Both the position numbers and the translations under genes were made by a program. Of a stretch of DNA of 64,000 nucleotides, positions 41,963 to 63,113 are shown one piece after another; within the stretch, counting starts at the first letter, position 1, and each line of letters begins with the position of its first letter. The stretch covers positions 62,001-126,000 of IMG/VR virus record IMGVR_UViG_3300027704_000008. One strand, given 5' to 3'. The DNA is from a virus. A model generated the notes under the pieces. That model saw only the letters and a program-made list of their open reading frames with translations. It did not search any database and was not told the DNA's origin.

Positions 41963-42943
41963 ATGGCCTGGCTGTTAATACCAAACAACCGCGGTTGGCA
42001 GTATGATAATGCTCCTGCTGATCCTGGTGCAAACAGTCCATACCGACCACTGTGGGAAAAACAAACTGCGGGAGTGCGAACTAACAGTGACGGAACTCAA
42101 GTTTACACTAAAGTCCGCAAGTACGGAAGCACCGTCGATACTGCAGGCGAGATAGCTAGGACATTCTGGAATGTTAAGGGAAACGACCAAAAGTTTCAGA
42201 TGGAGGTGTTGATACCATCTGGCGGAGCAACCTTCACAATACCTTGTCAGGATGTCGGGGTATTTGATGCCACAATTGATTGGGGTGATGGCACAACAAC
42301 AACCACTACTACCTATAACGGGGCTGGACTAGCTCATGCCTATGCTGCTGGCACTTATAAGATAATGATCAGTGGCATTTTCCCGAATATACATTTTAAT
42401 AACGCTGGTGATAAACTCCGTGTAACAAAGGTGCTGAACTTAGGTCATGTTGGTTGGACAAGTTTTTTATCTGCCTTTTATGGATGCGTCAATTTAACTC
42501 AATTTTCAGCTGGTTCTTCAGATACATCAAATGTTACAACATTCGCAGCTGCCTTAGCCGGGTGTACTGGATTTACCACAGGTCATGATGTGGGATTCGA
42601 TACATCATCAGCACAAAGGTTTGATAATTTCTTTTTGTCAAGCACATTTACCGATCTCGATGGAATACAGAATTGGGACATTACTAGTCTAACTACGAGT
42701 CCAGCAAATAATCTGAAAGCATTTATGACCAACGGTGCCAAACTGTCGACATCAACATACGATGAGCTGCTAGTCAATTGGGAAGGGCAAGACCCCACAA
42801 ATACAAACAACATGGGTAATGTTAAGTTTGGTTTGAGTACGTTTACTTCAGGTAGCGCAGCAGAAACTGCTAAAGGTGTTCTTACCACCTCAGTCGCAGA
42901 GGGCGGATATGGTTGGGTTATCACCGATGGGGGTGCAGTATGA
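41963..42943 (+). CDS. Adhesin with PKD-like and BspA/DUF285-type repeats, copy 1
   Basis: 326 residues. N-terminal WQYDNAPADPGANSPYRPLW and a linker (to about residue 75) precede a PKD-like strand (ATIDWGDGTTTTTTTY, AGTYKIMISG). Then come BspA/DUF285-type repeats (FLSAFYGCVNLTQFSAG..DTSNVTTF, and DGIQNWDITSL) and a conserved end WVITDGG. It is about half identical to the gene at 43258. A tail-fibre or virion surface adhesin is likely. Confidence 0.75.
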   Translation: MAWLLIPNNRGWQYDNAPADPGANSPYRPLWEKQTAGVRTNSDGTQVYTKVRKYGSTVDTAGEIARTFWNVKGNDQKFQMEVLIPSGGATFTIPCQDVGVFDATIDWGDGTTTTTTTYNGAGLAHAYAAGTYKIMISGIFPNIHFNNAGDKLRVTKVLNLGHVGWTSFLSAFYGCVNLTQFSAGSSDTSNVTTFAAALAGCTGFTTGHDVGFDTSSAQRFDNFFLSSTFTDLDGIQNWDITSLTTSPANNLKAFMTNGAKLSTSTYDELLVNWEGQDPTNTNNMGNVKFGLSTFTSGSAAETAKGVLTTSVAEGGYGWVITDGGAV

Positions 42944-43134
42944 TAACAAGAACTTCAGGATTTGGAATTATAGGAAAATGGGCATATTTTGCAGATAGTG
43001 ATACTCCTGCGGGTATGTGCGTTTCCTATGCTGACGATACATATGTCCAAGAGTTTGCTAGTAAAGAACTTTTGATGGATGCTCACAAAGAGCAGTTTCC
43101 AGACGAACACAGAGAACAGTTTCCAGAAGAGTAG
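42940..43134 (+). CDS. Small acidic protein, copy 1
   Basis: 64 residues from ATG 42940, overlapping the adhesin stop. It shares the end (VQEFASKELLMDAHKEQFPDEH) with the gene at 44301 (VQEFASEELMLAAHKEQFPDEH). Charged helices alternate with a beta-rich first half. It may be a chaperone or companion of the adhesin; function unknown. Confidence 0.7.
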   Translation: MITRTSGFGIIGKWAYFADSDTPAGMCVSYADDTYVQEFASKELLMDAHKEQFPDEHREQFPEE

Positions 43135-43154
43135 ACTGATTAAAGGAATATATA

Positions 43155-43280
43155 ATTTTTAAAATAGCTACAGCAGAACTTATAGGAAAGCATCTATCTC
43201 AGGTTGAATCTTGGTTAGATAGTATTTCCCCCGAAGATTACACAGGATATAAATCAAATGGCATGGAAAGGTATTCCTAA
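43155..43280 (+). pseudogene. Truncated copy of the 44508 gene
   Basis: The first 34 residues (TAELIGKHLSQVESWLDSISPEDYTG and a few more) match the gene at 44508, then the frame runs into the second adhesin start and stops at 43280. The start would be ATT 43155 behind AAAGGA, as in the full copy. It is the remnant left by the cassette duplication. Confidence 0.7.
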
Positions 43281-44304
43281 CAATCCCCATTGGCAGTACG
43301 ATGATGCTCCAGCAGACCCTGGAGCAAACAGTCCATATAGACCTCTGTGGTTAAAACAAACTGAGGGAATTCGAACGAACAGTGGCGGAAACGAAGTTTA
43401 CACGAAAGTTCGCAAGGTTGGAATCACCGTCGATACTATGGGTGAGCTGAGTAAAACATTCTGGGACGCTCAAGGTGATGAGGTGTTAGGCACAGACGCA
43501 TTTGAACTGCTAATAGAAACCAATGCTGGTAACAAGTCCATGGTGCTGGGCGGCCGCAGTGGATACACTTACAACGCAGTAGTTGATTGGGGCGATGGTA
43601 CCAGTACAACATCTGTAACTCACCATGCTGATGCCGTTCACACTTATGTTACCGCAGGTGAGTATACTATTTCTGTCACAGGTACTTTCCCTGCTATTAA
43701 AATGTACAATGAACCATCAGCAGCATACATCAGGAAAGTATCGAATCTTGGAAAGGTTGGATGGAAAAGTTTTAGGAACGGTTTCTATGCGTGTACTGGT
43801 ATGACCGAATTTACCATGGGAAATACTGATACATCTGGTGTTACAGAAACACAAAATATGTTTCGTGGGTGCTCGGGACTCGTAGGCACCCTCGACCTGA
43901 CCAGTATGATAGGTTCGAATTGTGTCAACACTACCGCTATGATTAGAGAGTGTTCTTCTGTAACGTCCGTGGTTTTTACTGGATGGGACACATCTTCACT
44001 TCCGAGATTTAAAGATATGATGCACAACTGTACTGCGCTAGTGAACGTAACAGGAATAGAAGATTGGAATATTACGGGGGTGAACGTGGCAGATGCCTTT
44101 AGTCAGATACTCACAAACGGTAGAATGACAACAGCACAGTACGATGCCCTGTTGGTTAATTGGGATGCCCAGAGTCCCCTTCCGCAAACCGGAGGGACAT
44201 CGCGATTCGGAAACTCAACATATACATCCGGTAGTGCAGCAGAGACTTCTAGGACCAATCTAATAAATGAGGGTTGGACAATCTCGGATGGGGGTAGTGT
44301 ATGA
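43258..44304 (+). CDS. Adhesin with PKD-like and BspA/DUF285-type repeats, copy 2
   Basis: 348 residues, paralogue of 41963. WQYDDAPADPGANSPYRPLW, the PKD-like AVVDWGDGTSTTSVTHH and AGEYTISVTG, then DUF285-type units (FRNGFYACTGMTEFTMGNTDTS, TQNMFRGCSGLVGTLDL, FKDMMHNCTALVNVTGIEDWNIT) and the end WTISDGG. It differs most from copy 1 in the repeat part, as expected for receptor-binding surfaces. Confidence 0.75.
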   Translation: MAWKGIPNNPHWQYDDAPADPGANSPYRPLWLKQTEGIRTNSGGNEVYTKVRKVGITVDTMGELSKTFWDAQGDEVLGTDAFELLIETNAGNKSMVLGGRSGYTYNAVVDWGDGTSTTSVTHHADAVHTYVTAGEYTISVTGTFPAIKMYNEPSAAYIRKVSNLGKVGWKSFRNGFYACTGMTEFTMGNTDTSGVTETQNMFRGCSGLVGTLDLTSMIGSNCVNTTAMIRECSSVTSVVFTGWDTSSLPRFKDMMHNCTALVNVTGIEDWNITGVNVADAFSQILTNGRMTTAQYDALLVNWDAQSPLPQTGGTSRFGNSTYTSGSAAETSRTNLINEGWTISDGGSV

Positions 44305-44495
44305 TAATCACACAGGAGAACGGGTACTGGATTATAAACAGCGGAACAATTGCGTTAGACGAAAATATAGTTGTTTCCTACCGTGACGATGCTATTGTGC
44401 AAGAGTTTGCCAGTGAGGAACTTATGCTGGCTGCTCACAAAGAGCAGTTTCCAGACGAACACAGAAAACAGTTTCCCGAAGAGTACACCGATTAA
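44301..44495 (+). CDS. Small acidic protein, copy 2
   Basis: 64 residues overlapping the second adhesin stop. It starts IITQENGYWIINSG and ends VQEFASEELMLAAHKEQFPDEH followed by an acidic tail, parallel to the gene at 42940. Function unknown. Confidence 0.7.
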   Translation: MIITQENGYWIINSGTIALDENIVVSYRDDAIVQEFASEELMLAAHKEQFPDEHRKQFPEEYTD

Positions 44496-44507
44496 AAGGA
44501 AGATAGG

Positions 44508-44900
44508 ATTTTTATAATACCTACAGCAGAACTCATAGGAAGGCATCTCTCTCAGGTTGAATCTTGGTTGGATAGTATTTCCCCAGAATATTATACAGGA
44601 TTAGAAATAGCATTACATCTGAAATCTAAAAAAGTTGAAATGTATTTTGTATATTCAGACTCAGACAATAGTCTGATGGGAATAGTAATAGTCTCCAATG
44701 AATATGATAATACTCTAGTCGTCGTAGGTGCTGCCGGAAATGTTGATAATGAATGGGAAATGTTAGATAAAGACTACACACAACTAGCGAAGTCGAAAGG
44801 ATGTACATCTTACGAGTTTCGAGCACGTAGAGGATTTTTGCGAACATTTAAAAAATATGGAATAGTTGAGAAGTACACGGTCATGCGTAAAACATTTTGA
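44508..44900 (+). CDS. Third cassette protein, possible GNAT-like fold, AUU start
   Basis: 130 residues if started at ATT 44508. The first usual start in frame (TTG 44568) would remove TAELIGRHLSQVESWL, a stretch conserved in the truncated copy at 43155, so translation must begin upstream. AAGGAAG lies 7 bases before ATT 44508, and copy 1 has an ATT at the same place. The C-terminal SYEFRARRGFLRTFKKYGI and VMRKTF resemble the end of GNAT proteins. Function unknown. Confidence 0.65.
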   Translation: MFIIPTAELIGRHLSQVESWLDSISPEYYTGLEIALHLKSKKVEMYFVYSDSDNSLMGIVIVSNEYDNTLVVVGAAGNVDNEWEMLDKDYTQLAKSKGCTSYEFRARRGFLRTFKKYGIVEKYTVMRKTF

Positions 44901-44970
44901 CGCGCAACCAACATCTCACCAAATTGGTGCGAGCACGTATACAAACAGTAATAACGGCGGTATCACATAT
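44901..44970 (+). other. Leader of the tmRNA region with an inverted repeat
   Basis: CACCAA-A-TTGGTG (44917-44929) is a perfect 6-bp inverted repeat upstream of the tmRNA acceptor piece. No clear promoter pair is seen. It may be a hairpin in the precursor. Confidence 0.4.
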
Positions 44971-45255
44971 GGAGGCACCGCATAAAGAATTCGTTGACGT
45001 AACATTGAGGCTAGGCAAACACTGGGGTTCGAAACCCCACGCTTCCACCTATAATCATTCCTAGAGTGTTTATAGGGGGAGCGATTTGGATTCGACTTGC
45101 TAGTAATAGGTGTTGCTAGAATAGGTGATGTAAGCTACCTTAAACGCGAACAAACAATATAAATGCAAATGATGCGTTTTATGGTGAGCAAGCTATAGCA
45201 GCTTAACCCACCTGAGGTTGTGGCCCTTCCTTATAATCCAATAGGGCTCCTGTCA
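44971..45255 (+). ncRNA. ssrA: Circularly permuted (two-piece) tmRNA
   Basis: The acceptor piece comes first: T-arm TGGGG-TTCGAAA-CCCCA (45023-45039), then CGCTTCC-ACC (45040-45049). After a spacer, the coding piece starts GGGAGCG at 45077, which pairs with CGCTTCC over 7 bp (one G-U) to make the acceptor stem. GGATTCGAC, the tmRNA D-loop signature, follows at 45088. Helix P2 forms between TTGCTAG (45097-45103) and CTAGGCAA (45011-45018) with one bulge. The tag frame 45165-45206 encodes ANDAFYGEQAIAA then stop. CC is encoded at the 3' end but the last A is not. Outer ends are approximate. Confidence 0.92.
45165..45206 (+). other. tmRNA tag reading frame
   Basis: GCA resume codon, then codons for ANDAFYGEQAIAA and TAA. 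The start AND and the end AA are typical of proteobacterial tags; the hydrophobic C-terminal IAA should be seen by ClpXP-like proteases. Confidence 0.88.
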
Positions 45256-45273
45256 AATTAAACCCAGGAGCAT

Positions 45274-45726
45274 ATGATGAAAGTTAAAATAGGCAACTAT
45301 CCTAAGCATAGATTTTACCACAATTGGTTATATGCACTTGGCTGGACTAATGATGCTAAGGTCAGTGTCCGTATTGACCCTTGGGATACATGGTCAATGG
45401 ACTCCACCCTGGCGTACATCGTTGTGCCTATGCTACAACAACTTCGAGATACTACGCACGGAGCGCCTGTAGTATCTGACGATGACCGCCCCGAACATTT
45501 GATTGGTACTGTAGTGGATGCCAGCAAGGGAGATATTGATGAGTTTCACTTTGAAGCGTGGGACTGGGTACTAACCGAAATGTTGTTTGCTTTTGAGAGT
45601 AAGCACAGTGGTTGGGAAGGCGAGGACTGGGAAAGCGATGATTGGAGAAGAAGTGAAGCGTGGCAGCCGCGTATCACCAATGGCTTTCGTTTGTTTGGAA
45701 AGTATTACGAGAATTTATGGGATTAA
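45274..45726 (+). CDS. Conserved phage protein of unknown function
   Basis: 150 residues with two ATG at 45274 and 45277 behind CAGGAG. VSVRIDPWDTWSMDSTLAYIVVPMLQQLRDTTHGAPVV, cited by RIDPWDTWSMDSTLA and PMLQQLRDTTHGAP, is a well conserved core I know from many large phages. The end is rich in Trp and acid residues. Function unknown. Confidence 0.8.
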   Translation: MMKVKIGNYPKHRFYHNWLYALGWTNDAKVSVRIDPWDTWSMDSTLAYIVVPMLQQLRDTTHGAPVVSDDDRPEHLIGTVVDASKGDIDEFHFEAWDWVLTEMLFAFESKHSGWEGEDWESDDWRRSEAWQPRITNGFRLFGKYYENLWD

Positions 45727-45731
45727 ATATT

Positions 45732-46946
45732 ATGAATATCAGCAATGCAATGCTGGTTAGTATTATAGTTTTGTTAGGACTGTTAACAGGTTGCGGCGGT
45801 GGAGGAGGTGGTTCTGAGTCACCTCCATTAGAGGTAATACAACCTCCATTGGAGGTAATACAACCTCCTGTAGTTGTAGAACCTCCAGTGATCGTAGAGC
45901 CTCCAGTAGTTGTAGAACCTCCTGTAGTTGTAGAGCCTCCAGTGATAGAGATATCGCAGATGAGCAAACCTGAAGATTGTTTGACTGAAGCAACTGACAC
46001 AGGCAATGACATTTACGAGTACATGACGTGTGATGGCATCCTTGTGCGATCAGACATCGACTTTCCGTATGATCAATTCAATACCGAAATAGCTTTGATT
46101 GATATACTCGCAGTGGTAGACACTAAACTAGATGAAGAGCTCGATGGTGGAACTTACGAACAGTTCGCCCAGAGAGAAGTAGACCTTGCCAATAAGCTAT
46201 TTGAGGACTCGCAAGTATACATAATGCTTCGCTTGGTACACGTGCAGCTTGTCGAGGTCGCCGAGGGAGACCTGTATAAACAGATAAACAATTTTACTCA
46301 AAGCAAACGTGAATTCTCCGACCTAGATCAATGGCAGAAAGACGCAGGCGCAGATATAGCATTCTTGTTCAAGAAGATAGAACAAGAACCAATTGCATGT
46401 GGTGTAGCAATATACAACGATCTCACTCAACAATATAGGTATCGTAGAGGAGTGTCACAGTGTCACATCAACACAGTCTTTCAGCAAACTACGGTCACTC
46501 GATATTACGAACGTGCCCATGAAACATTTACTCACGAAATCGGTCACATCCTTGGCATGGACCACAACATCGAAGCAGCGGGTGCACCAAGCACATTATT
46601 TCCGTTCTCATATGGATACCTGATTCCTGGGTATGACCGAGACCTGAGCGATGAGTATAACGGATATGGTACAGTTATGAGTTATTCTGATTTAGCGACA
46701 GGACGATTCTCTGACCGCTCTGAACGATTTATCATACCAGAGACGGGAACATCTCAACGATTAGGAACAGATCGACAAAACTCTAACTATGTTGGGGGTG
46801 ATGCGATTCCAGCAACAGATGCAGTTGATCATCTCAATCGTGTGCGATACTACATGAGTCAACTACATGAGAACTTCAATGAACAGCAAGACGCCGCGGT
46901 TATGTTCAATGGCCTCCCACATACCTCCGCGCGCTGCTACTTCTAG
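45732..46946 (+). CDS. Lipoprotein metzincin metalloprotease
   Basis: 404 residues from ATG 45732. The N-terminus is a lipoprotein signal ending LLTGC (Cys21), so the protein should be exported and anchored to a membrane. Residues 22-70 are a Gly-rich then Pro-Val-rich linker of repeated PPVVVE/PPVIVE units. The zinc motif HEIGHILGMDH is at about 268-278, with HETFT just before it, and the metzincin Met-turn VMSYSD lies near 315-320. Cys residues suggest disulphides. Peptide bonds of host surface or neighbouring proteins may be its substrate. A longer upstream start would spoil the signal. Confidence 0.88.
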   Translation: MNISNAMLVSIIVLLGLLTGCGGGGGGSESPPLEVIQPPLEVIQPPVVVEPPVIVEPPVVVEPPVVVEPPVIEISQMSKPEDCLTEATDTGNDIYEYMTCDGILVRSDIDFPYDQFNTEIALIDILAVVDTKLDEELDGGTYEQFAQREVDLANKLFEDSQVYIMLRLVHVQLVEVAEGDLYKQINNFTQSKREFSDLDQWQKDAGADIAFLFKKIEQEPIACGVAIYNDLTQQYRYRRGVSQCHINTVFQQTTVTRYYERAHETFTHEIGHILGMDHNIEAAGAPSTLFPFSYGYLIPGYDRDLSDEYNGYGTVMSYSDLATGRFSDRSERFIIPETGTSQRLGTDRQNSNYVGGDAIPATDAVDHLNRVRYYMSQLHENFNEQQDAAVMFNGLPHTSARCYF

Positions 46947-61963: not shown

Positions 61964-63113
61964 GACGCTATACAAATATGATAGTAAGCAGCGCCAACGT
62001 GAGTGGGGGGTGTTTACTGAGGGTCCAAGAGTTACGGTTATACATGGTTTGGTCCTTGGCAAGAAAACTGTTAAGCGTACTATCAGCAAAGCTAAGAACA
62101 CAGGTAAGGCAAACGCTACCACAGCTGAAGAGCAGGCCATTAAGGATGCTCAGTCAAAGTGGAACGCTCAGGTTCTTCGCGACGATTATAACGTTGACAT
62201 AGAGAAGTCAGGCCGCCAGATGCGCCCAATGCTTGCTCTCGATTATAAGAATGTTCCCCATCGAGTTGAATGGAGCATGCCGACATTGCTTCAGGCAAAG
62301 CTGGACGGTTTGCGTTTGACTACCGGACAACGTGATGTGGGTGATAGAGAATATGATCCATCGCAGCCTATCGAGATGTTGAGCCGCAAGGGTGAGACAT
62401 ATGAGTTACCTCATCTAACAAAGCACTGTGGTGAGCTGCTTGCACACATCAACGATAAGTATGCCAACTGTCTTGCCCTGGATGGTGAGGTTTATATCCA
62501 CGGCATGCCACTTGGACAGATAGTATCCAGGGCCCGTAAGTATCAACAAGGGGTGACAGAGGAGCTGGAGTATTACATATTTGACTTGGTGATACCTGGT
62601 ATGGGATTTGGTGAACGATCAGAGATACTTTTGAAGGCAATGCAGGATTTGAATTCTCAGTACCCATTCACTCTTGTTACCACTTGCCCTTGCACCTCCG
62701 AACAGGACATGAAGGAATACCACGCCCAATATATTGGGGAGGGTTACGAAGGTGTTATGATCCGGCCGGCCGATGGTCCATATACGATAGGCAATCGAAG
62801 CGATTATCTGTTTAAGTATAAAGAGTTCTTTGACAAGGAATGTAAGATTGTTGGCATGCAAGAGGACGCTAACGGTAACGCAGTGCTGACGTGCTTGTGG
62901 AATTCAACGGATCCAACTTCTGAGTTCCGCTGCACACCCAAGCGTACTCATAGTGAACGAGCGGCGATGTTACTGGACTCTACCTTGGTCGGAAAGTGGA
63001 TCACAGTCAAGTACCAAGATGTATCATACGCAACTCACTCTGGTGGTCTTCCGACTTTTAACACTGGCCTGGATATCAGGGAATGTGATGATAACGGAGA
63101 GCCTATTGTATGA
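61950..63113 (+). CDS. ATP-dependent DNA ligase
   Basis: Seals nicks in replication and repair. It has 387 residues. LQAKLDGLRL holds the AMP-binding Lys (near residue 117), ALDGEVYIHG is motif III, EYYIFDLV motif IIIa, GYEGVMIRPADGPY motif IV and LFKYKEFFD motif V. The nucleotidyltransferase domain is followed by an OB-fold (KWITVKYQDVSY). The first 100 residues are a phage-specific extension. It fills the role of T4 gp30. Confidence 0.93.
   Translation: MNRFETLYKYDSKQRQREWGVFTEGPRVTVIHGLVLGKKTVKRTISKAKNTGKANATTAEEQAIKDAQSKWNAQVLRDDYNVDIEKSGRQMRPMLALDYKNVPHRVEWSMPTLLQAKLDGLRLTTGQRDVGDREYDPSQPIEMLSRKGETYELPHLTKHCGELLAHINDKYANCLALDGEVYIHGMPLGQIVSRARKYQQGVTEELEYYIFDLVIPGMGFGERSEILLKAMQDLNSQYPFTLVTTCPCTSEQDMKEYHAQYIGEGYEGVMIRPADGPYTIGNRSDYLFKYKEFFDKECKIVGMQEDANGNAVLTCLWNSTDPTSEFRCTPKRTHSERAAMLLDSTLVGKWITVKYQDVSYATHSGGLPTFNTGLDIRECDDNGEPIV

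Follow-up and report, generated by a model that had tools for sequence, protein, structure and literature searches.

A circularly permuted tmRNA gene in a T4-like phage and its putatively phage-restricted ANDAFYG tag class

Why would a phage carry a tmRNA gene, and is the tag that it encodes one of its own? These questions are raised by a locus in a 64,000-nt stretch of DNA (the window), positions 62001–126000 of a 138,622-base IMG/VR virus record. The phage is T4-like, as seen from its terminase, sheath, portal, head protein, DNA polymerase, and primase. Its head protein is nearest to those of Phage C48C1 (66%), Stenotrophomonas phage DLP_6 (59%), Melnitz (58%), and Pelagibacter phage HTVC008M (58%). 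DLP_6, Melnitz, HTVC008M, and a further related isolate, Mosig, each have a permuted tmRNA, with tags other than the window's, and a structure pattern that ignores the tag matches 62 viral contigs. Surveys have reported tmRNA in 402 of 18,146 phage genomes, including 53 two-piece forms (PMC9004378), and 79 unique bacteriophage tmRNA sequences (PMC11915505). Phage-borne permuted tmRNA is thus established as a known kind, and the new part is a tag class that appears restricted to phages.

Our analysis revealed that positions 44984–45262 of the window are a complete circularly permuted tmRNA gene. The only RNA gene that ARAGORN called in the window lies at 44955–45297 and is a permuted tmRNA with the tag ANDAFYGEQAIAA; the Rfam model RF04321 (tmRNA_permuted) matched 44988–45206 over model positions 1–213 of 213 with 87.2 bits (E 2.4e-15), above its gathering score of 47 bits. 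The best lineage model, beta_tmRNA (RF01850), aligned at full length over 44949–45255 and scored 59.8 bits against a cut-off of 84, which places the gene outside the betaproteobacterial family as that cut-off defines it. A motif of 72 bases that covers the two halves of the tRNA-like domain matched once in the window and in none of 100 shuffled sequences. The first-pass annotation, which had proposed a phage gene for a permuted tmRNA with this very tag and a covariance-model hit above threshold, is confirmed by these results. Comparison with the nearest relatives, the viral contigs L123, L159, and L164, set the best-conserved limits of the gene: a block of 279 bases is 91% conserved in them, and its immediate flanks are unlike those of the window in two of the three. 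A nucleotide search of 50,697 phage records with the window tmRNA returned short, chance-like matches only.

The gene order is permuted, since the 3′ half of the acceptor stem (45040–45049) precedes the 5′ half with an intervening segment between them (Table 1). The acceptor stem consists of seven pairs and carries the alanine signal, G3.U70 with a discriminator A, and the tag frame ends in AA-stop (ANDAFYGEQAIAA-TAA); both are features of RF04321. P2 is a long bulged helix of −16.5 kcal/mol, a value reached by 0.27% of shuffles, and the fold of the whole tmRNA has a z score of −3.0 against 200 shuffles. The seven-pair stem and the P2 helix were thus found as the earlier reading had them, and its predicted RNA ends at 45049 and 45077 fit the sequence. 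That reading would have been undermined by loss of the acceptor and P2 pairings in relatives; in the acceptor stem, pairs 4, 5, and 6 instead show compensatory changes (e.g., GGGGATG/CATCTCC) with G3.U70 kept. Read in a fixed register, pair 3 is G.U in 16 of the 20 distinct relatives that share the ANDAFYG core of the tag, and the full stem is missing in a few relatives, which is probably a register problem. The T-stem remains paired in every distinct relative, its pairs being of several types, and the intervening segment is self-complementary in relatives too, despite a different sequence. The window and L123/L159/L164 encode CCT, whereas 18 of the 20 distinct ANDAFYG relatives encode CCA; the terminal A is also absent from most of the bacterial permuted genes that we found. 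No promoter-like site upstream of the tmRNA and no terminator-like site were found, and the T4 late promoter TATAAATA was rejected as a candidate, as it occurs at chance frequency only.

Table 1. Features of the permuted tmRNA gene and its downstream border (window positions).
Feature	Position	Strand	Basis or remark
Acceptor piece, 3′ half of the tRNA-like domain	44984–45049	+	RF04321 match; start of the 91% block at 44984; 5′ end approximate
P2 strand in acceptor piece, GTAACATTGAGGCTAGGCAA	44999–45018	+	Duplex with 45097–45117; minimum-energy fold
T-arm, TGGGG-TTCGAAA-CCCCA	45023–45039	+	Sequence
Acceptor stem 3′ strand, CGCTTCC	45040–45046	+	Pairs with 45077–45083; compensatory changes in relatives
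Discriminator A (45047), encoded CC (45048–45049), and a T where CCA would have its last A	45047–45050	+	Sequence
Intervening segment, self-complementary; removal expected in the mature RNA	45050–45076	+	Fold
5′ strand of the acceptor stem (GGGAGCG, G3.U70 present); coding piece predicted to start here (RNase P site)	45077–45083	+	Sequence
D-domain equivalent, ATTTGGATTCGAC	45084–45096	+	RF04321 alignment
P2 strand in coding piece	45097–45117	+	Duplex with 44999–45018
Tag reading frame, ANDAFYGEQAIAA and TAA	45165–45206	+	ARAGORN, RF04321
3′ part of coding piece	45207–45262	+	End of the 91% block at 45262; beta_tmRNA match to 45255
Perfect 7-bp hairpin, GCTCCTG/CAGGAGC	45246–45271	+	Sequence; 3′ arm holds AGGAG (ribosome-binding site) of the next gene
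phrog_11543 gene, 150 aa, no assigned function, directly downstream of the tmRNA	45274–45726	+	phrog match

The tag recurs among viruses. AAATGC followed by any coding of ANDAFYG occurs in 67 viral contigs besides the window and in none of 84,980 bacterial and archaeal species genomes, a negative result that the prefix restricts to tmRNAs with AAATGC; without the AAAT prefix, the ANDAFYG pattern was absent from the 369 genomes of one class (that of G055). In all matches ANDAFYG is followed by three or four residues and then LAA or IAA (the residue before AA was counted as L or I), EDRLAA and EERLAA being the commonest ends, and the tags have 13 residues (14 in one contig). Residues 1–7 were imposed by the search pattern, from which only the tag-blind scan is free. 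The pattern left the remainder free, where residue 8 is always E or D, residue 11 is L or I, and the last two are alanines; codons 1–7, 8, 12, and 13 vary synonymously. The tag-blind scan gave 202 viral pairs with less than 50% backbone identity, of which 12 share all first seven tag residues; all 12 are ANDAFYG pairs, linking the group of the window with those of EDRLAA and EMRLAA. ANDAFYG phages include two deeply split head-protein lineages, 59–61% and 34% identical to the head protein of this phage. We define the phage ANDAFYG group as permuted tmRNAs on viral contigs with a tag ANDAFYG-x(3-4)-[LI]AA, to which the window's gene belongs. These comparisons support, but do not prove, that ANDAFYGxxx[LI]AA is a phage-restricted tag class, and it looks selected at the peptide level. 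Its presence on diverged backbones would be explained by either peptide selection or exchange of the tag region, and the tmRNA tree is too noisy to tell one from several origins of the tag.

Known systems share parts of this arrangement. Melnitz and the pelagimyophages (PMC9004378) likewise have a permuted tmRNA in T4-like (Kyanoviridae) phages, and their major head proteins are 57–58% identical to that of this phage; however, their tags (ANDNYVPVDYALAA, GEDNFALAA, and ANFNEYALAA) differ from the window's, and the glutamine riboswitch reported with the Melnitz tmRNA (PMC9004378) was not found here. The T4-like Stenotrophomonas phage vB_SmaS-DLP_6 also carries a permuted tmRNA (136.8 bits) with a 13-residue tag ending in IAA, but the core of that tag (ANDDSFAPMAIAA) is unlike the window's, and the gene lies inside a tRNA cluster, whereas no tRNA gene or further tmRNA was found in the 138.6-kb record. 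The betaproteobacterial permuted tmRNAs (RF01850; Rhodocyclaceae and relatives) have the same gene order and the same layout of acceptor, T-arm, and P2. Their tags, such as ANDERFALAA and ANDEQFAIAA, share the AND start and the [LIV]AA end; in contrast to the 13-residue window tag, they have 10 residues and lack ANDAFYG. The viral contigs L123/L159/L164 and the EDRLAA, EERLAA, and EMRLAA groups have both the permuted gene and the ANDAFYG core. The backbones of the latter three groups are approximately 45–50% identical to the window's, and most of them encode the full CCA, in contrast to CCT in the window.

The first-pass annotation took the permuted form as a clue to the host, and this did not hold. 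Among the phages with a permuted tmRNA are some whose recorded hosts are Stenotrophomonas, Acinetobacter, Pseudomonas, and Xanthomonas, while a standard tmRNA, scoring more than 190 bits, is present in both Stenotrophomonas genomes tested (S. chelatiphaga and S. rhizophila). Host assignment by the permuted form was therefore rejected, and a permuted tmRNA in a phage is unsuitable for guessing the host. Assignment by a shared tag was likewise rejected, as the ANDAFYG motif is in no prokaryote genome searched, and no evidence naming the host was found. The absence of the motif from the 84,980 genomes favors a further suggestion of that annotation, that the tag may differ from the host's. As separate observations, contigs of S. 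chelatiphaga and S. rhizophila (L274 and L300) also hold permuted tmRNAs, with the tags ANQVDYHQARIAA and ANADYYDQDEEVILRVA, which we suspect to be prophage-borne, and the Pandoraea plasmid pPO70-1 has two permuted tmRNA matches, for one of which ARAGORN gives the odd tag GKNDAFYYEAA.

Of the 42 distinct ANDAFYG tmRNAs whose available sequence is long enough, 26 are followed by the phrog_11543 gene, compared with 2 of 37 further viral tmRNAs and none of the 75 from bacteria; in the closest tmRNA relatives of the window, the gene is missing from this place. Phages of Sinorhizobium, Agrobacterium, Nitrincola, and Limnohabitans have the gene but no permuted tmRNA, and a tmRNA lies near only 4 of the best 80 viral copies. 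The link is one-way, and the copies without a tmRNA make a functional pair of the two genes a weak candidate. The predicted model of the protein (pLDDT 76) had no structural match in the PDB. The hairpin between the two genes is not conserved in the alignment with L164/L123/L159. On the other side, two similar DUF285-like genes stand in tandem just upstream of the tmRNA (41963–44600), each followed by one of two similar short segments (43140–43250 and 44500–44600). The product predicted at 45660–46946 is a lipoprotein-like metallopeptidase (reprolysin type, M12B), and homologues lie approximately 1 kb downstream of tmRNAs tagged ANDDSYYGDYALAA or ANDDNYYGDYALAA in other viral contigs.

How would such a tmRNA work? 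The best explanation, which we consider likely, is a complete permuted tmRNA of a T4-like phage that is processed in two, uses host SmpB, and adds a phage-class tag. From what is established for tmRNA, tRNA-processing enzymes of the host would cleave the transcript to yield two pieces, an acceptor RNA that ends near 45049 and a coding RNA that begins at 45077, with the acceptor stem and P2 holding them together. Because the CCA end is incompletely encoded, a host CCA-adding enzyme would be needed to complete it, and alanine would then be charged through G3.U70. Neither SmpB nor SspB was found in the phage record; thus, host SmpB would take the tmRNA to stalled ribosomes, where (A)ANDAFYGEQAIAA would be added. 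Ribosome rescue or retagging during infection may be the result.

With the charged alanine, the tag reads AANDAFYGEQAIAA. Compared with E. coli AANDENYALAA it keeps A-A-N-D-x-x-Y and ends in IAA, most relatives ending in LAA. The E. coli tag is composed of an SspB-side half and a ClpX-side half (PMC8138137), and the phage tag may be built likewise: AANDxxY would be its SspB-like N-terminal half, and [LI]AA its ClpX-type C-terminus. Relative to the common 10-residue bacterial tags, it has three extra residues between Y7 and the end. Engineered tags become SspB-dependent when they carry a DAS end and four additional residues separating the SspB site from the ClpX site (PMC8138137), and together with the longer spacing here they make adaptor routing a testable idea; ANDAFYGEQAIAA, ANDAFYGEDRLAA, and E. 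coli AANDENYALAA are the tags named for a comparison of degradation.

Several other explanations deserve weighing against the likely one of a working two-piece tmRNA with a phage-class tag. Under a bolder extension of it, tentative in our judgment, phages have selected ANDAFYGxxx[LI]AA as a degradation tag, which was retained by or moved between backbones differing at half of their bases and distantly related T4-like phages. The tag would then send stalled products down a protease or adaptor pathway suited to infection, possibly with the phrog_11543 protein. Somewhat less probable is that the tag serves mainly to redirect its product, its length changing the choice of protease or adaptor, for example toward greater SspB dependence. 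The 13 residues, against 10 in 68 of the 76 bacterial permuted tags found, and the resemblance of the three extra residues between Y7 and LAA to DAS+4 tags (PMC8138137) speak for this; however, the C-terminus of DAS+4 was also changed, and LAA or IAA alone should suit ClpX. It is improbable that the phage tmRNA is a decoy that sequesters SmpB or ribosomes of the host and inhibits trans-translation by the host rather than tagging proteins, a role suggested for the tRNA-like-only tmRNA of phage DS6A (PMC4131195). No phage SmpB was found, so there would be competition for the host's, and a molecule with the tRNA domain only inhibits tmRNA in E. coli, but the intact tag frame with its stop and a tag conserved through synonymous changes would be needless for a decoy. 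Very improbable is accidental carriage of a transduced or mis-assembled host gene without phage function: contact of phages and islands with tmRNA genes is frequent, and the betaproteobacterial permuted type is the nearest lineage model to this backbone, but the same block is 91% identical in other viral contigs, no searched prokaryote genome has the ANDAFYG motif, and the gene sits in a phage gene array with related T4-like phages carrying permuted tmRNAs.

On the favored explanation, a two-piece tmRNA that works with host SmpB and adds the phage's tag, its likely use would be to safeguard the supply of ribosomes and amino acids in the infected cell by means of a tmRNA and a degradation tag that the phage controls. 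Phage-tagged and host-tagged proteins would be distinguishable in one infected cell by mass spectrometry. A tag that recurs among phages and is absent from the searched prokaryotes provides a handle on why phages carry tmRNA.
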